Notes under the pieces: generated by a model | What the model was told of the DNA's origin: nothing | Database searches by the model: none | Seen by the model: the letters and a program-made list of their open reading frames with translations, nothing else | Shown here: piece after piece, positions 5,911 through 20,314 of the stretch | Numbering within the stretch: the stretch's first letter is position 1 | Layout: every line of letters starts with the position of its first letter | Translations under genes and position numbers: made by a program | Origin: a virus | Length of the DNA stretch: 30,268 bases | Direction: 5' to 3' (one strand) | Virus record (IMG/VR): IMGVR_UViG_3300034061_000928 | Location: 1-30,268 of that record

Positions 5911-5942
5911 AAGACGGAACGTAAAAAATTCCGTTTTTTTTT
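5911..5942 (+). terminator. Rho-independent terminator after early operon
   Basis: The stem ACGGAA (5914-5919) pairs with TTCCGT (5929-5934), extended by weaker pairs to 5911/5937, around a nine-base loop, followed by a run of T to 5942. It closes the recombination operon, and a new promoter starts within it. Confidence 0.85.
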
Positions 5943-6000: not shown

Positions 6001-6354
6001 ATGAAAAGTTTATTAATGGAATGCCCTGAATGTGATGGATGCGGTTATGTAACTATTGATTTGAACGATACGATAATACCGTATGAACAAAGAGAAGTTG
6101 ATTATACTTGCATGAGTTGTGACGGTAAGCAGTATGTTTTATCTCCAGATGCAGTTGAAGACCGAATGATGTGTATTGAAGATATGATTCACGGTATGCA
6201 ATCACGAATCGAATTAGTAGGTCGTTCAGCTTATTCAGCAAAGAAAGTAAGTAATGAAAGATATGTTGAAATATACTTAGACAGATTAGATACTTTAACA
6301 CGTGGTTTATATCGACTTAAACAATATAGAAATAAATTACTTAATTTAGCATAG
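6001..6354 (+). CDS. Zinc-finger-like protein (CxxCxGC motifs)
   Basis: A 117-residue protein whose N-terminal part has DnaJ-like zinc motifs: CPECDGCGYV (Cys8, Cys11, Cys14) and CMSCDGKQYV (Cys37, Cys40). The rest is a long helical hairpin with many Arg and Tyr. The likely role is metal-stabilised protein or nucleic-acid binding. As the first gene of the unit that includes the sigma factor, it may be involved in the switch to late expression, but that is speculation. Confidence 0.75.
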   Translation: MKSLLMECPECDGCGYVTIDLNDTIIPYEQREVDYTCMSCDGKQYVLSPDAVEDRMMCIEDMIHGMQSRIELVGRSAYSAKKVSNERYVEIYLDRLDTLTRGLYRLKQYRNKLLNLA

Positions 6355-6461
6355 TGAAAATTAAACGAACGGATGAGATTGCCTTTGGTATCAGTTATAA
6401 AAGTTCTGGTGTCATAGGCATTTTCTTTTTGTATTGGGTTGTAGAAATATATGTAAAGTGA
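6354..6461 (+). CDS. Small membrane protein, GTG start
   Basis: A 35-residue open frame from a GTG that overlaps the preceding TAG stop by one base and ends in a GTGA overlap with the sigma-factor start. The first 12 residues are basic and polar (KIKRTDEIAFGISYK) and the rest is a hydrophobic segment (SGVIGIFFLYWVVEIYV) long enough to cross the membrane. The double overlap supports a real gene. No function is known. Confidence 0.5.
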   Translation: MKIKRTDEIAFGISYKSSGVIGIFFLYWVVEIYVK

Positions 6462-6988
6462 ATTGGATTGAACTTGTAGCAAAGCATCACAAAGAATATG
6501 TAAAGACAATTCAAGGATTTGGGGAGTATTTTTATGCAGAAGATTTAGTTCAAGAAATGTATATTCGTTTATTAAATAAAAATAAAGAGCAACAAGTTAT
6601 TATAAACGGACAAGTGAATAGATATTACGTTTACTTAACTTTGCGTTCGTTATTCGTTGATTTTTACAGACAGAAAAGCAAAATAATAAAAGTAGATATT
6701 AATGAAATACTTACTTTGCAACAAATTGATGAGATAGAAGAACACGAAGCATTTGGAAGTTTAATGAATAGAGTAAACAATGAAACTAAAACGTGGCATT
6801 ATTACGACCAACTTTTATTCAAGTTATACAAAGACACGGATAAATCAATGCGAGATATAGCAAAAGACACGAATATAAGTTTACGTTCAATCTTTTGTAC
6901 TATAAAAAGTTGCAAAGAACGTTTAAAAGAAAACGTGAGTGAAGATTACGAAGATTATATAAATCAGGATTACGAATTAATTAAATAG
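6458..6988 (+). CDS. Phage sigma-70-like RNA polymerase sigma factor
   Basis: A 176-residue protein starting at a GTG in a GTGA overlap; the frame opens earlier from a TTG at 6434, but the overlap and the VNWIELVAKHHKEY start favour 6458. Region 2 is recognised by YAEDLVQEMYIRLLNK (about 26-41) and the helix YLTLRSLFVDFYRQKSK. Region 4 is a C-terminal HTH, DKSMRDIAKDTNISLRSI with a following basic helix ending ERLKE. It would bind host core RNA polymerase and select promoters. Because host-type promoters are seen only in early regions, it may direct the structural genes. It is a distant member of the family and has no anti-sigma partner nearby. Confidence 0.78.
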   Translation: MNWIELVAKHHKEYVKTIQGFGEYFYAEDLVQEMYIRLLNKNKEQQVIINGQVNRYYVYLTLRSLFVDFYRQKSKIIKVDINEILTLQQIDEIEEHEAFGSLMNRVNNETKTWHYYDQLLFKLYKDTDKSMRDIAKDTNISLRSIFCTIKSCKERLKENVSEDYEDYINQDYELIK

Positions 6989-8085: not shown

Positions 8086-8457
8086 ATGAAGTTAGTAAAC
8101 ATAAACGAGGTTAAACCAAACCCTAAAAACCCCAGAATAATAAAAGACGGAAAATTTCAAAAGTTAGTTAAGTCTATCCAAGAATTTCCTGATATGCTAA
8201 ATAAACGCCCTCTAATCGTTTTTACTGACGTAGACGGTAAATATATTGTCTTAGGTGGCAATATGCGTTTAAAAGCCTGTAAAGAGATAGGATTGAAAGA
8301 AATACCTATTATAATAGCAGATGAATGGACTGAGGAACAAAAAAACGAATTTTTAATAAAAGACAATGTAGGTTTTGGAGAATGGGACTGGGATAGCTTA
8401 GCAAATGAATGGGATGTAGAAAAGTTAGACGGTGCGAATCCGACCCAACCGCTCTAA
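8086..8457 (+). CDS. ParB/sulfiredoxin-like domain protein
   Basis: A 123-residue protein with a ParB-like N-terminal fold: VNINEVKPNPKNPR at 4-17, then VLGGNMRLKACKEIG at 55-69 (the GGxxR motif) and IPIIIADEWTEEQKNEFLIK. In phages such proteins are often fused or adjacent to a DNA methyltransferase, or lie upstream of the terminase as here. After EWDVEKLDG the ending NPTQPL departs from the usual family continuation, so the C-terminus may be truncated. ParB folds can be CTP-binding or nuclease-like; which applies here is not visible. Confidence 0.82.
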   Translation: MKLVNINEVKPNPKNPRIIKDGKFQKLVKSIQEFPDMLNKRPLIVFTDVDGKYIVLGGNMRLKACKEIGLKEIPIIIADEWTEEQKNEFLIKDNVGFGEWDWDSLANEWDVEKLDGANPTQPL

Positions 8458-8481: not shown

Positions 8482-8817
8482 ATGGGTGCAAAAGATATAG
8501 AAAAACACGAATTTAAAAAAGGCGAATCAGGAAACCCTAACGGCAGACCTAAAGGAGCAAAGAATAGAAGCACAATAGCAAAGTATTGGTTAGAAGTAAA
8601 TCAAAAGCTAAAGAACCCTTTAACAGGTGCAGAAGAAACAATGAGTCAAGAAGATTTAATGACTTTGGCTTTAATTAAAAAAGCACGTGAAGGCGATGTA
8701 GCAGCTTATAAAGCATTAATGGATAGCGGTTACGGTGCACCACTTCAACAAATAGAACAAACAATAGTAGAACAACCTTTATTTCCAGATGTTCAAGAGG
8801 ACAACAGCAACGAATAA
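8482..8817 (+). CDS. terS: Terminase small subunit candidate (DUF5681-like)
   Basis: A 111-residue protein with the N-terminal signature KKGESGNPNGRPKGAKNR (about 12-29), characteristic of DUF5681-type proteins encoded just before the large terminase. The middle is helical (EDLMTLALIKKAREGDVAAY, then LMDSGYG), resembling the DNA-binding and oligomerising regions of small terminases. The gene overlaps the large subunit by 29 bases. It would recognise the packaging start on phage DNA. Confidence 0.8.
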   Translation: MGAKDIEKHEFKKGESGNPNGRPKGAKNRSTIAKYWLEVNQKLKNPLTGAEETMSQEDLMTLALIKKAREGDVAAYKALMDSGYGAPLQQIEQTIVEQPLFPDVQEDNSNE

Positions 8818-9949
8818 AGTACTGGCTTTAAAAAGACGAATTAAAATAATACAAGGCGGAACTTCAGCTTCCAAAACGTATTCAATCTTAGCAGTCTTAA
8901 TAAACAAAGCAATAATACAACCTAACTTAGAAATAAGCATAGTAGCTGAATCAATACCTCACTTGCGTAGAGGAGCATTAAAAGATTTTTTAAAAATACT
9001 TAAATGGACTAACAGATATTATGAAGACCAATTTAATAAATCGCTCCTTAACTATCAATTTAAGAATGGAAGTAGTTTTGAGTTTTTTTCTGCTGACGAT
9101 AGCAGTAAGTTACGTGGTGCTCGTAGGGATATTCTCTATATTAATGAGTGTAATAATATATCTTTTGAAAGTTACAATGAACTTGCTATTCGAACAAAAA
9201 AAGAAGTCTATTTAGATTTCAATCCTGCCAATGAATTTTGGGTACATACGGAACTAAAAGACGAATCCGATTCAGAGTTTATAATCTTAACGTACAAAGA
9301 CAACGAAGCACTTGATAATAGTATTGTTCAACAAATAGAAAAGAATCGTTTAAAAGCAGAAACAAGTAGCTATTGGAGTAATTGGTGGAGGGTTTATGGA
9401 TTAGGAGAAATAGGAATGCTTGAGGGTGTTATATTTAGTAATTGGAAACAGATTGATAAACTACCTGCAGAAGCTAAGTTAATAGGAATAGGTCTTGACT
9501 TTGGATATACAAACGACCCAACTGCAATAATTGAAGTTTACAATTATAACGGAACACGAATACTTAACGAATTAAAATACCAAACAGGAATGTTAAACAG
9601 CGATATAGCTAAAATACTTCCAAAACACGTACCTATTTATGCTGATAGTTCAGAGCCTAAATCAATAGACGAAATAAAACGATATGGAGTAACTATTAAG
9701 GGTGTTACAAAGGGCAAGGACAGCATTAATTACGGAATTGATGTAATACAACAACAGGAGTATTTAGTGACGTCAAACAGTATTAATTTAATTAAAGAAC
9801 TTCGTTCTTATTGTTGGGACGTAGATAAAAACGGAATCAGATTAAACAAACCTATTGACAAAAATAACAATGCTATTGATGCTTTTCGTTATCATGAAAT
9901 GGAAACACTCGGATTAAAGCGCAATTATGGAACATATAATATACGTTAA
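8789..9949 (+). CDS. terL: Terminase large subunit
   Basis: The packaging motor and headful or cohesive-end nuclease. Walker A is GGTSASKT at residues 23-30, Walker B ILYINE at 115-120 with catalytic Glu120. The C-terminal RNase H-like nuclease shows LDFGYTNDP (Asp237), IYADSSEP (Asp286) and NAIDAFRYHE (Asp364). At 386 residues it is full-length, though short for the family. The ATG at 8789 overlaps the small subunit gene; no better start is nearby. The protein resembles phage terminases of the Terminase_3 group. Confidence 0.96.
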   Translation: MFKRTTATNKVLALKRRIKIIQGGTSASKTYSILAVLINKAIIQPNLEISIVAESIPHLRRGALKDFLKILKWTNRYYEDQFNKSLLNYQFKNGSSFEFFSADDSSKLRGARRDILYINECNNISFESYNELAIRTKKEVYLDFNPANEFWVHTELKDESDSEFIILTYKDNEALDNSIVQQIEKNRLKAETSSYWSNWWRVYGLGEIGMLEGVIFSNWKQIDKLPAEAKLIGIGLDFGYTNDPTAIIEVYNYNGTRILNELKYQTGMLNSDIAKILPKHVPIYADSSEPKSIDEIKRYGVTIKGVTKGKDSINYGIDVIQQQEYLVTSNSINLIKELRSYCWDVDKNGIRLNKPIDKNNNAIDAFRYHEMETLGLKRNYGTYNIR

Positions 9950-10137
9950 TGACAGATGATACACCGATGTTAAAAGCGGTAGTTGAGAATTATGTGTATA
10001 TTCGTACAGGAAAACGAATTAAAATAGTATTTGATGACCCTCAAAGTATAAGAAAGCATTTAATAATGTTAGGAGATGCGTATGCTATTGCTGTGAACTA
10101 CAAAAAAACAGAACAAACGTTTAATAATAAAGAATGA
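9949..10137 (+). CDS. Small protein after terminase, unknown
   Basis: A 62-residue protein starting in a TAATG overlap with the terminase stop and ending in an ATGA overlap with the next gene. It has one predicted helix-strand pattern (YVYIRTGKRIKIVFDDPQSI) and a hydrophobic helix (LGDAYAIAVNY). It is probably a virion or tail assembly accessory, judging only by position. Confidence 0.65.
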   Translation: MTDDTPMLKAVVENYVYIRTGKRIKIVFDDPQSIRKHLIMLGDAYAIAVNYKKTEQTFNNKE

Positions 10138-10862
10138 AATTAGAACTAACCATACCGACAAAGCTAAGTGAAATACCTTTAAAGCATTATCAGAAGTTTT
10201 TAGAGTTATCCAAAAAGACGAATGATGAGGAATTTTTAGCTGAAAAGATGATTCAGATATTTTGCGGTATTGAATTAAAAGAAATAGTTAAGATTCCGTT
10301 TAAAGAAATCGAAGCATTAAGCATTCACTTTGCAAAGTTATTTGAGCAAAAGACGAATTTTCAAAATAGGTTTACATTATCTGGAGTTGAATTTGGTTTT
10401 ATTCCAAACTTAGAAGAAATAAGCTGGGGGGAATATATAGACTTAGAAGCGAATATAAGCGATATAAACAACTTTCATAAAGCAATGGCAGTTATGTATC
10501 GACCAATAAAAGAAAAACACAGAAACAAGTATTTAATCGAGGAGTATATTAGTTCAGCTAATTATTCAGAAGTTATGGAATTTGCTCCTTTGGATATTGC
10601 TTTAGCTGCACAAGTTTTTTTTTGCAATTTAGAAAACGAATTATTGACGGCTACCCTGTATTATTTGGAGAGCCAAGTGAAGATGAACAAGCAGATACAA
10701 ACGACTTTAGCGAAAGAACTCAATTTGCAAAACAGTGGGGATGGTATCAATCAATATATGCAGTCGCTAAGGGAGATGTCACAAAATTTGACGAAGTTAC
10801 CAGACTACGACTTACAAAAGCACTTACCTACCTTACTTTTGAAAAGCAGAAACAGGAAATAG
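10134..10862 (+). CDS. Tail assembly chaperone, short form (zero frame)
   Basis: A 242-residue protein at the head of the tail module. The first 163 residues would be shared by two products: a short form that continues in frame to 10862, and a longer one made by a -1 shift at the T tract 10615-10623. Tail assembly chaperones of siphoviruses typically coat the tape measure during assembly and use such a shift. The zero-frame tail continues 79 residues, including SGDGINQYMQSLREM and LPTLLLKSRNRK, and seems protein-like. I recall related C-termini in flavobacterial phages. The assignment rests on position, helical composition and the slippery site. Confidence 0.75.
   Translation: MKLELTIPTKLSEIPLKHYQKFLELSKKTNDEEFLAEKMIQIFCGIELKEIVKIPFKEIEALSIHFAKLFEQKTNFQNRFTLSGVEFGFIPNLEEISWGEYIDLEANISDINNFHKAMAVMYRPIKEKHRNKYLIEEYISSANYSEVMEFAPLDIALAAQVFFCNLENELLTATLYYLESQVKMNKQIQTTLAKELNLQNSGDGINQYMQSLREMSQNLTKLPDYDLQKHLPTLLLKSRNRK
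10616..10622 (+). other. Slippery heptamer T TTT TTT for -1 frameshift
   Basis: Codons in the zero frame are GTT TTT TTT TGC from 10614. Pairing T TTT TTT (10616-10622) lets tRNAs slip back by one base, and the -1 frame then continues TTG CAA TTT from 10622 without a stop to 10897. Nine consecutive T (10615-10623) is unusual inside a coding sequence. No pseudoknot was tested. Confidence 0.7.
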
Positions 10863-10897
10863 AAAATAGAGAATTAAAAAGACAAATTAAAAGATGA
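10622..10897 (+). CDS. Frameshifted C-terminal domain of tail assembly chaperone
   Basis: A 91-residue open frame, reached by the -1 shift, that would give a 254-residue fusion with the upstream 163 residues. It begins with LQFRKRIIDGYPVLFGEPS and continues with AKQWGWYQSIYAVAKGDVTK and ALTYLTFEKQKQEI. The composition and pattern look like a real helical domain, which I recall in the same position in related phages. It overlaps the zero-frame end for about 240 bases, and its stop overlaps the next start (ATGA at 10894). The frame lacks a good ATG of its own, so frameshift expression is favoured over independent initiation. Confidence 0.72.
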   Translation: MQFRKRIIDGYPVLFGEPSEDEQADTNDFSERTQFAKQWGWYQSIYAVAKGDVTKFDEVTRLRLTKALTYLTFEKQKQEIENRELKRQIKR

Positions 10898-11352
10898 GTT
10901 ATTACGCAATTTTAAACACGTTAAAAACAGAATTAGAAGCTACTAATTTAGTTAACACAGTAACAGAGGGAGATATTTTTAGAATTGATTTATCTAAACA
11001 AACGATATTTCCATTAGCTCATATCATGGTAAATAATGCCACGTTTGAAAATAATGTTATTCGTTATAATGTTTCTATTATTGCTATGGATATTGTAGAT
11101 ATATCGAAAGACGAAACAACAGATATTTTTGTAGGTAACGACAATGAACAAGACGTATTGAATACTCAGGTAATAATGTTGAATCGTGTTTATGATAAAC
11201 TAATAAGAGGAGATTACTTTTTAAATTCAGGAATCATTGACGGTAATCCAACACTCGAACCTTTCATTGAACGTTTTGAAAACAACTTAGCAGGGTGGAC
11301 TATGACTTTTGATTATTTAATAGGAAACGAAATGACTGTTTGTGATGAATAA
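10894..11352 (+). CDS. Tail completion/terminator-like protein
   Basis: A 152-residue protein: an N-terminal helix (YYAILNTLKTELEATNLVN), a central beta-strand run (FENNVIRYNVSIIAMDIVD) and a second helix before LAGWTMTFDYLIGN. This alpha-beta arrangement resembles small proteins that close the tail tube or join it to the head. It begins in an ATGA overlap with the frameshifted chaperone. Assignment is from pattern and position only. Confidence 0.65.
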   Translation: MSYYAILNTLKTELEATNLVNTVTEGDIFRIDLSKQTIFPLAHIMVNNATFENNVIRYNVSIIAMDIVDISKDETTDIFVGNDNEQDVLNTQVIMLNRVYDKLIRGDYFLNSGIIDGNPTLEPFIERFENNLAGWTMTFDYLIGNEMTVCDE

Positions 11353-15527: not shown

Positions 15528-15694
15528 TAAAAGGAATAATAGATATGTTAAAATTGGATGCGTTTATAGGAGCATCTGAAAACATAGAAATAGCGAAAGG
15601 AAAACACGAATTAAAAAAGGATTTTAAAAGCCTTTGGAATCAATCAATAAGAGAACTAAAAGTAAAACGAAATGGCAGAAAAAAGGGTAATTGA
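15524..15694 (+). CDS. Small basic protein before tape measure
   Basis: A 56-residue frame starting in an ATGA overlap with the tail-tip gene and ending 23 bases inside the tape measure. It is Lys-rich, with the sequence IAKGKHELKKDFKSLWNQSI and a very basic end (KVKRNGRKKGN). It fills what would be a 144-base gap in an otherwise gapless tail operon, supporting reality. No family is recognised; a tail accessory role is likely from position. Confidence 0.6.
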   Translation: MIKGIIDMLKLDAFIGASENIEIAKGKHELKKDFKSLWNQSIRELKVKRNGRKKGN

Positions 15695-17675
15695 ATTAGA
15701 AATTCAGGACAATAGCAAAACACTAAAAGCTCAATATAAAGAAGCGGTTTTAGAAGTTCAAAGATTAGCTGCTGCTTATGGGGAAACTTCTCAGCAAGTT
15801 GCAGAAGCTGCCAAAAAAGCTGCTGGCTTAAAAGACCAAATCGAAGATACAAACGATGCTATTGCTGCATTTAAAGGAGAGGGTAAATTTGCTGCTACTG
15901 GAAAAGCCTTAAGTGCTGTTGCAAGTGGATTTAGTGCTGTTGAAGGTGGTATGGCATTAGTAGGGGTTGAAAGTGAAAACTTACAAAAAACAATGTTAAA
16001 AGTTCAAGCTGCTATGGCATTAGCTCAAGGACTTGAAGGATTAGAAGATGCAGGTCGTGCTTTCAAACAGTTGGGAACCGTTGCTGTAAATGCTTTAAAA
16101 GGAGTTAGAGGAGCTTTAATTGCAACAGGAATTGGTGCTTTAGTTGTTGCATTAGGAACTATTGTTGCGTATTGGGACGATATAAAAGCTGCTGTTAGTG
16201 GAGTAACTTCAGAACAAGAAGCATTAAATGCTGAAACAGAAAAAAATGTTCTTATTGAAAATGAAAAACTAACATCATTAAATAGTCAGGATAACATTTT
16301 AAAATTACAAGGTTTATCTGAAAAAGAAATTTTAAGAATAAAAATAAAACAAATAGATGCTACAATAGCAGCAACTGAAGAACAAATAAAACAAAATGAA
16401 GTAACAGCAAAACTACAAGAAGAAGCTACATTAAGAAATTTCAAAATAGCAAAACAAGTTATAGCTGCAATTACTAAAATAGCATTAATTCCAATTACTG
16501 CTATGGTTGCACAAGTTGATTTATTAATTAAAGGAGCAAATTATGTTAGTGAAGCATTAGGCGGTAAAAAATTAATTGATTTAGAACCATTAAAAGAAGC
16601 CAATAAATACTTTGATAAAATGGCAGAGGGTGGAGCTAAATTATTATTTGACCCTGAAGAAGTAAAAGCAGAGGGAGAAAAAGTAAAAAAAGAAACTGAA
16701 AAACAACTTCAAGAACTTAAAAATACAAAAGCTGGGTATCAATTAGCTATTAAAGAAATAGATAAACAAGGCACATCAAATGTTGTATCTTCAAAAAAAG
16801 ACGAATTAGATGCTTTAATTGAATTAGAAATACAAAAGGCAAACACAGATGAAAATATATTAAGGGATTTACTTCAAAAAAGATTGGATTTAGAAAAACT
16901 TTCTGGAGCTCAATTAGAATTAGCGCAAAATGAAAATGCTGAAAAATTAAAACAAGCTATTGAAGATGATAAACAAGAAATAATAAAATTAGAAACTAAA
17001 TCAGTTAAAGATATTCAAGCTATAAAATTACAAGGACAATTAAATGAAATAGCTACACAAAAAGAAATAGACCAAATTAAACTTGATTCATATCAACAGT
17101 ATTTAGAAGAAGTAAAGAAAAAAGAACAAGAAGAATTAGATGCTCAAAAATTAGCGCAACAACAAAGAGTAGATTTAATTTTAAAATATGCTCAAACGTT
17201 TGGACAAGCAATGTCATCTTTAAACGGATTGCTAAACGCAAATGATGAGGAACGACTTAAAAACGTTAAAAAAGGCAGTAAAGAAGAAGAAGAAATTAAA
17301 CGTAAAATGTTTGATAGAGACAAAAAACTTCGCATTGTTCAAACAGTAATAGATACAGCTTCGAATGTAGTGCAATCAATTAGAAACGGTGGTGGTATTC
17401 CAACAGGTATTCCATTTGGTATTGCTGCCGCTGCTATGGGTGCGTTACAAATAGCTACAATATCTAAAGCTAAATTTGACGGTGGAGGTGACCAAGTTCA
17501 ATCTCCAAGTGCTGGAGGTGGTGCAATGGCCCCTAACTTTAATGTTATAGGAAGTTCTGGAGTTAATCAATTAGCACAAATACAACAACAACCAACAAGA
17601 GCATATGTAGTTAGTGGGGACGTAGCAAATGGATTAAGCCTTGAAAGGAATAGGTTACAAAACGCATCATTTTAA
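15672..17675 (+). CDS. Tail tape measure protein
   Basis: A 667-residue, largely helical protein that sets tail length and may pass into the host on infection. It has long Ala/Lys/Gln/Glu-rich coiled segments (residues 15-65, 380-510), a hydrophobic segment at about 148-168 (ALIATGIGALVVALGTIVAY), and a Gly/Ala-rich hydrophobic part near the end (GGGIPTGIPFGIAAAAMGAL). No peptidoglycan-cleaving domain is seen. The length suggests a tail of roughly 100 nm by the usual proportionality, i.e. a siphovirus of ordinary tail size. It is the last tail gene; head genes follow. Confidence 0.9.
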   Translation: MAEKRVIELEIQDNSKTLKAQYKEAVLEVQRLAAAYGETSQQVAEAAKKAAGLKDQIEDTNDAIAAFKGEGKFAATGKALSAVASGFSAVEGGMALVGVESENLQKTMLKVQAAMALAQGLEGLEDAGRAFKQLGTVAVNALKGVRGALIATGIGALVVALGTIVAYWDDIKAAVSGVTSEQEALNAETEKNVLIENEKLTSLNSQDNILKLQGLSEKEILRIKIKQIDATIAATEEQIKQNEVTAKLQEEATLRNFKIAKQVIAAITKIALIPITAMVAQVDLLIKGANYVSEALGGKKLIDLEPLKEANKYFDKMAEGGAKLLFDPEEVKAEGEKVKKETEKQLQELKNTKAGYQLAIKEIDKQGTSNVVSSKKDELDALIELEIQKANTDENILRDLLQKRLDLEKLSGAQLELAQNENAEKLKQAIEDDKQEIIKLETKSVKDIQAIKLQGQLNEIATQKEIDQIKLDSYQQYLEEVKKKEQEELDAQKLAQQQRVDLILKYAQTFGQAMSSLNGLLNANDEERLKNVKKGSKEEEEIKRKMFDRDKKLRIVQTVIDTASNVVQSIRNGGGIPTGIPFGIAAAAMGALQIATISKAKFDGGGDQVQSPSAGGGAMAPNFNVIGSSGVNQLAQIQQQPTRAYVVSGDVANGLSLERNRLQNASF

Positions 17676-19282: not shown

Positions 19283-19870
19283 ATGAATACAAATCAAATC
19301 TTAAACAAAGTTCGAACACTTTTAGGAATGGAAGTAAAGTTAGAACAAATGAAATTAGCGGACGGAGTAACAGTTATCGAAGCTGAATCATTCGAACCCG
19401 AAATGGAAGTTTTTGTAGTTACCGAAGATGAGCAAAAAATACCTTTGCCAGTTGGAGAGTACGAAATGGAAGACGGACGTATTTTAGTTATCGAAAACGA
19501 AGGTATCGTTAAAGAAGTGAAAGAGAAAATGGAAGAAGAAGTAGAAGTTGAAGAACCTGAAACAGAAACTGAAATTGAAGTAGAAGCGGAAAAAGAAACT
19601 GCAGTAGCTACTCCAAAGAAAACTATTGAAAGTGTAGTTAAAGAATCATTCTTTTCTGAAATCGAAGCATTAAAAGCAGAAAACGAAACTTTGAAAGCTG
19701 AATTATCTAAACTAAACAAAGTAGAAGAAAAAACAGAAGTAGAATTAAGCGAGAAGCCTAAGCCTATTTCATTCAATCCTGAAAACACGAATCCTGTAGA
19801 GCGAATTAAACTTGCTTCTAAAAGAAAACGTTCAATAATGGATACAATTTTAGAAAAACTAAATAAGTAA
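19283..19870 (+). CDS. Capsid scaffolding protein candidate
   Basis: A 195-residue acidic protein placed before the decoration and capsid genes. The N-terminal part (MEVKLEQMKLADGVTVIEAE) resembles the corresponding part of other flavobacterial phage proteins. It then has a Glu/Val-rich low-complexity stretch (about 82-110), a coiled coil (SEIEALKAENETLKAELSKL), and a short basic C-terminal helix (LASKRKRSIMDTILEKLNK), the shape usual for scaffold proteins, whose C-terminus binds capsid. The preceding XkdF-like protease may cleave it. Confidence 0.72.
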   Translation: MNTNQILNKVRTLLGMEVKLEQMKLADGVTVIEAESFEPEMEVFVVTEDEQKIPLPVGEYEMEDGRILVIENEGIVKEVKEKMEEEVEVEEPETETEIEVEAEKETAVATPKKTIESVVKESFFSEIEALKAENETLKAELSKLNKVEEKTEVELSEKPKPISFNPENTNPVERIKLASKRKRSIMDTILEKLNK

Positions 19871-19891
19871 TAATTTAAAAACAAAAAAAAA

Positions 19892-20314
19892 ATGAGTACA
19901 ACATTAATTTCAGTATCTAACGATGTTTTGCGTCAAGTTGGCGTAGTTGAAACATTGACAGGTGCAACAACTTTAACTGCTGAGGATAGCGGTAAAGTAT
20001 TTATCTTAAACGCTGCTGCAGGTGCGCAAATTACACTTCCTGCTGTTGCTGATGCAACGGGTCATTCTTATAAGTTCATCGTAGGAGCATTATTTGCAAC
20101 TACTGCTTGGACTATTAAAGCGGCTTCAAACAAAATTCAAGGTGGTGTTATCGTAAATAGCACAAACGTACACGGTGCAGATGAAAACACAATTACTTTT
20201 TCTGCTTCTGCTGACTCAATCGGAGATTTCGTAGAATTAAATTGTGATGGTTCTAACTGGTATGTTTTCGGATTGGGAACATCATCTGGTGCAATTACAT
20301 TAACTGCAGTATAA
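19892..20314 (+). CDS. Capsid decoration/head fibre-like protein
   Basis: A 140-residue beta-rich Ala/Thr/Ser protein with GATTLTAEDSGKVFILNAAA, then QITLPAVADATGHSYKFIVG and FVELNCDGSNWYVFGLGTSS, a pattern typical of decoration or head-surface proteins directly before the major capsid gene. The start follows a 21-base leader with a run of nine or more A, suited to strong translation in Bacteroidetes. Confidence 0.8.
   Translation: MSTTLISVSNDVLRQVGVVETLTGATTLTAEDSGKVFILNAAAGAQITLPAVADATGHSYKFIVGALFATTAWTIKAASNKIQGGVIVNSTNVHGADENTITFSASADSIGDFVELNCDGSNWYVFGLGTSSGAITLTAV

Follow-up and report, generated by a model that had tools for sequence, protein, structure and literature searches.

A probable slippage gene with two overlapping and conserved C-terminal ends in a phage genome and its relatives

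The window analyzed here, a stretch of 30,268 nucleotides comprising the IMG/VR virus record IMGVR_UViG_3300034061_000928, contains a gene (Table 1) with a run of nine T's read in the zero frame as GTT TTT TTT TGC. As the first-pass annotation had pointed out, this run holds a T_TTT_TTT heptamer in the correct register for a -1 shift, and both the zero frame and the -1 frame stay open beyond it. Through the -1 frame the gene would encode a fusion of 163 + 91 = 254 residues, and the 240 nt (80 codons) that follow the heptamer, up to the zero-frame stop, are common to both frames. The third (+1/-2) frame meets a stop at codon 5-6 in all of the 174 sequences tested. In the AlphaFold2 model of the zero-frame protein the mean pLDDT is 79, with block means of 82-93 for residues 11-160; the model of the -1 domain is helical (pLDDT 70), and the part following the slip is mostly helical in the models of both versions.

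Table 1. Features of the slip gene and its surroundings, in window coordinates
Feature	Coordinates	Strand	Evidence
Terminase large subunit, two genes upstream of the slip gene	8789..9949	+	PF04466/PF17288
Shared N-terminal domain, codons 1-160 of both predicted products	10134..10613	+	ORF and AlphaFold2 model
Zero-frame product, 242 aa, including the 80-codon post-slip tail (10623-10862)	10134..10862	+	ORF, shuffles, selection
Slip tract, T9 with T_TTT_TTT (10616-10622) in the -1 register	10615..10623	+	Sequence; at least nine T's in 240/240 relatives
-1-frame C-terminal domain, 91 codons (LQFRKR...), stop TGA 10895-10897	10622..10897	+	Conserved KWGWYxS...LAKGD core, helical model
TAG closing the third (+1/-2) frame, five codons past the tract start	10630..10632	+	Sequence
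Next gene, 152 aa, phrog_30964, ATG overlapping the -1 stop (ATGA)	10894..11352	+	PHROG match
Likely tape-measure protein, four genes between	15672..17675	+	phrog_24676 tail length tape measure protein, E=1.2e-12

One small gene separates the slip gene from the terminase gene. The order slip gene - phrog_30964 - phrog_29822 - phrog_35281 - phrog_38559 is common to the window and to the Nonlabens phage P12024L, whose phrog_29822 member shows a weak match to tail-completion/Neck1. Between 8789 and 24738 the window has an unusual gene order, with the terminase followed by the tail block and the tape-measure gene, and then by a head protease (17688) and the portal (22349). A 184-aa protein encoded upstream of the terminase (6434-6988) resembles a small sigma factor by eye, and P12024L_35, likewise upstream of the terminase, is annotated as Sigma-70 region 2; a 123-aa protein (8086-8457) resembles, again by eye, a ParB-type nuclease domain. 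Elsewhere in the window a second T9 run (5934-5942) lies upstream of an ORF at 6001, an A10 run (19883-19892) is found between the genes at 19283 and 19892, and a 196-aa open frame on the minus strand (19294-19884) is antisense to nearly all of the 195-aa gene at 19283-19870.

Relatives were collected from IMG/VR (by single-protein and alignment queries), GTDB genomes and annotated phages, and the search also covered genomes from the family and the order to which the MAG behind one locus (L199) belongs. This yielded 240 distinct relatives spanning the region, mostly IMG/VR contigs, with N-domain identities ranging down to about 27-33%. Three relatives (L292, L303 and L306), which were at first dropped by a motif filter, fit the pattern when inspected by hand (FRP for YRP), and other filtered-out sequences are interrupted by contig ends. 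Judging from the Nonlabens phages, the MAG of L199 and the search within the family, the hosts are probably flavobacteria. The gp10 region of Flavobacterium phage 6H (10048-10927 of L263) contains gene 10, presumably the BFVD structural match R9VW65 (191 aa; equated by protein length), and after it 300 bases of unannotated sequence in which a further frame is open; the gene was left out of the analysis since its frames look disrupted in the record.

The tract is T9 in 233 relatives, T10 in six and T12 in one, and is never shorter than nine. Both frames are kept open for 56-104 codons after the slip in 237 of the 240, the zero frame being short (19-28 codons) only in the three sequences of the Nonlabens P12024L clade. 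Stops breaking one of the frames in homologues and a poorly conserved T tract, either of which the first-pass annotation had held to speak against its proposal, are thus not the pattern observed. Of two additional loci from bacterial genomes, L354 (on a 3.9 Mb contig) combines T9 with a 70-codon overlap, and L355 combines T9 in another register, starting on the third codon base, with a 43-codon overlap. The zero-frame end point has shifted several times (about 58, 64-73 and 80-104 codons). In a tree with midpoint rooting the short-overlap P12024L clade falls outside all others on a long branch, a placement compatible with either gain or loss of the overlap.

From the tract onward the -1 frame displays a conserved FFLxFRxR motif, which lacks a conserved start codon. 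Conservation beginning at the tract itself fits entry into this frame by slippage at the tract, rather than by internal initiation. Seven bases suffice for a ribosomal slippery heptamer, and yet the run never falls below nine T's in the relatives, a length held even where the register differs (L355) and in the T10 and T12 variants. The run reaches the threshold for transcriptional slippage, a homopolymer of at least nine A or T (PMC1088944), and A/T runs of this length are avoided in many bacterial genomes because of polymerase slippage (PMC1088944). Hence, of the frameshift proposed in the first-pass annotation, the conserved heptamer in the -1 register stands, but a ribosomal shift is not the sole option: RNA polymerase might slip at the T9, inserting an extra U in some transcripts and yielding identical proteins. 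RNAalifold, applied to three sequence groups, detected no conserved downstream RNA structure, with nothing below the column-shuffled nulls. Further, a Shine-Dalgarno stimulator is unlikely because ribosomes of Bacteroidia do not use such pairing (PMC9976891). In E. coli, U_UUU_UUU acts only weakly as a site of ribosomal slippage (PMC5009743). On the other hand, the outer T's also serve amino acids (as the middle base of a V/L/I codon and in an invariant -1 Leu), so that the nine T's could be partly coincidental, and shifting of the lambda type needs only a few percent, which may be within the reach of ribosomes alone. Given a run of at least nine across registers, the lack of conserved RNA structure, the improbability of a Shine-Dalgarno stimulator and the weakness of U_UUU_UUU, we rate slippage by the polymerase and by the ribosome as about equally probable.

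Profile searches of Pfam and NCBIfam with the slip gene gave no match, the sole PHROG match was phrog_32199, a family of unknown function, and a structure search against the PDB gave no significant match. Among viral models the structure search recovered only uncharacterised phage relatives, along with an insignificant hit to an Arthrobacter phage Elesar chaperone (E about 1). A match to Arthrobacter phage Peas (E=0.1) was rejected as chance, because the early region in which it falls is unrelated. G/GT-type chaperones are defined in part by products that bind the tape-measure and tail-tube proteins but do not become part of the virion. With such genes the slip gene shares a conserved slippery site and a -1 extension (at least nine T's and an open -1 domain in the 240 relatives), but it does not lie directly upstream of the tape-measure gene. 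We accordingly class it not as an established member of the G/GT group but as G/GT-like, with a putative role as a tail chaperone. The designation as a tail chaperone given at first pass is thereby retained as an analogy: the conserved slip site and -1 extension favor it, no Pfam, NCBIfam or PDB match lends it support, and a position following the terminase, rather than directly preceding the tape-measure gene, counts against it. That position, the lack of a family match and the presence in the block of the gene whose P12024L homolog resembles tail-completion/Neck1 could alternatively point to another type of head-tail assembly or neck protein made in two isoforms by slippage. We regard this as rather doubtful, given that low-level -1 slippage and a helical C-terminal extension upstream of the tape measure are typical of G/GT, and that the slip gene is the first of a block, the tape-measure protein being encoded further downstream.

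The claim of the first-pass annotation with the greatest consequence was that the zero frame runs for some 80 codons across the shifted domain as genuine dual coding. This was evaluated by shuffles in which the protein of one frame was held and synonymous codons were redrawn from the phage codon usage. For the window, holding the -1 protein produced 5.0 zero-frame stops on average, with the zero frame open in 0 of 4000 trials, and reshuffling the zero-frame codons interrupted the -1 frame with 6.1 stops. In the long-overlap lineages 3-6 zero-frame stops are expected with the -1 protein held, as against none found, and the reverse shuffle introduces 4-7.5 stops into the -1 frame; for the lineages other than that of the window, 0-1.4% of the draws leave the zero frame open.

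Selection was assessed in independent pairs of three divergence classes, using 2- and 4-fold sites of the -1 frame. The third position of the -1 frame is the second position of the zero frame, and hence every -1-synonymous third-position change alters a zero-frame residue; if the -1 frame alone mattered, sites in the overlap would be expected to change at the ordinary synonymous rate. The rates observed are lower. In the first set of pairs they were 0.044, 0.099 and 0.209 in the overlap versus 0.133, 0.324 and 0.409 in the single-coding upstream part, about a threefold reduction. From the zero-frame stop up to 36 nt ahead of the -1 stop, the rates were 0.102, 0.290 and 0.352, not differing from upstream (p versus overlap 0.013, 5e-6 and 1e-3). 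In a larger set the close pairs gave 0.117 after the stop, 0.055 in the overlap and 0.138 upstream (p = 1.6e-4), with the recovery after the stop being partial at higher divergence (0.227 versus 0.297 and 0.282 versus 0.406 upstream). Change is slow in the last 36 nt, even past the zero-frame stop, presumably owing to their position just ahead of the next gene. Without the zero-frame extension, the P12024L clade shows rates like those of the upstream part in its -1-only stretch (7/33 versus 26/122 and 26/49 versus 69/133). Pooled rate ratios for the two closer classes are about 0.31-0.37 in the zero frame and about 0.18-0.23 in the -1 frame. In the zero frame, amino-acid replacements at first looked significantly biased towards conservative ones; with stop-creating changes removed and bases matched the signal was lost, and it was not used as support.

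Thus, long open frames are found in independent lineages and selection is seen on each frame: both overlapping ends are kept by purifying selection. The comparison of codon-position substitutions advised in the first-pass annotation bears out dual coding, which is strongly supported by these rates together with the 240 relatives. The zero frame might nonetheless be held open merely so that most ribosomes terminate near the next start (coupling or polarity), and not for its protein. This would suit the 59 of 174 relatives in which the zero-frame stop lies 8 nt ahead of the -1 stop, near that start, and the conservative-replacement test is uninformative on the point. We judge it improbable, since stops would arise from only about 15% of the comparable synonymous changes, yet about two thirds of these are missing, and since many relatives stop 59-95 nt ahead of the -1 stop with the overlap still constrained. 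That the -1 frame alone codes, with the zero frame open by chance, has nothing to commend it other than that long dual coding is rare a priori, and is scarcely credible in view of the 237 of 240 open frames, the stops arising in the shuffles and the suppression of -1-synonymous change.

Taken together, these sequence comparisons make it likely that this is a slippage gene with two products of common front, in which the zero-frame product's own C-terminus is overprinted on the -1 domain. Standard decoding would give the zero-frame product of 242 residues, and slippage at the T9, by the ribosome or RNA polymerase and probably at a low level, would add the helical -1-frame domain to give the 254-residue fusion, so that the two would share a front of 163 residues and differ in ends drawn from the same DNA. 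Purifying selection on both ends implies that the zero-frame protein has a functional C-terminal part of its own and does not merely stop after the slip. By analogy with gpG/gpGT of lambda, many copies of the short form might coat the tape-measure protein and a few fusions might recruit tail-tube subunits, with the zero-frame tail perhaps helping to assemble the tape-measure complex. More tentatively, as a conjecture that we would not yet favor, the phage family might have exchanged the G/GT design in which the short form stops for two C-terminal domains of nearly equal size in the same 56-104 codons, by means of RNA-polymerase slippage at a T9 or longer run, with the ratio of the proteins set at transcription.

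Frameshifted tail chaperones are among the most widespread of recoding events, and their short form is usually regarded as nothing more than the shared domain. Here that form has a conserved end of its own, which competes with the end of the long form for one set of bases, and the P12024L clade provides a natural control free of the overlap. The family therefore permits direct tests of the mutual constraint between overlapping protein domains, of gain versus loss of the zero-frame end, and of whether phages of Bacteroidota, whose hosts' ribosomes ignore Shine-Dalgarno sequences, set the ratio by RNA-polymerase slippage. A literature search, with most subscription journals lying outside it, found no report of dual coding of this length in a phage tail chaperone.

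The likeness to G/GT of lambda lies in the two products with a common N-terminus and in a slippery run, located before the tape-measure gene, that allows a -1 shift. However, lambda uses a different slip sequence (GGGAAAG) and has no detectable homology, its gene adjoins the tape-measure gene, unlike the slip gene here, and G ends 6 codons past the heptamer as opposed to 80. E/E+E' of P2 is likewise reached by a -1 shift at a T-rich slip sequence (TTTTTTG), located just before the tape-measure gene T, but E ends 7 codons past the slip, without a long overlap. The contrast with typical chaperone pairs drawn at first pass, where the zero frame ends soon after the slip, accordingly holds. The Nonlabens phages P12024L/S offer a homologous system (P12024L_40 and P12024L_41), with a T9, the same neighbors and identities of 30% in the N-domain and 28% in the -1 domain; they differ in having a zero frame that stops 28 codons from the slip codon and a later -1-only stretch that evolves at the ordinary synonymous rate. 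What GenBank lists as two genes of P12024L (L198, 8001-8695) is a single slippage gene, split into its zero-frame and -1 halves. Beyond phages, overlapping ORFs reached by slippage are known from RNA viruses, in the paramyxovirus P gene and the potyvirus P3N-PIPO (PMC5009743, PMC4552492); these involve unrelated proteins and other slip sequences, but there too slippage gives access to a long additional ORF within conserved coding sequence.
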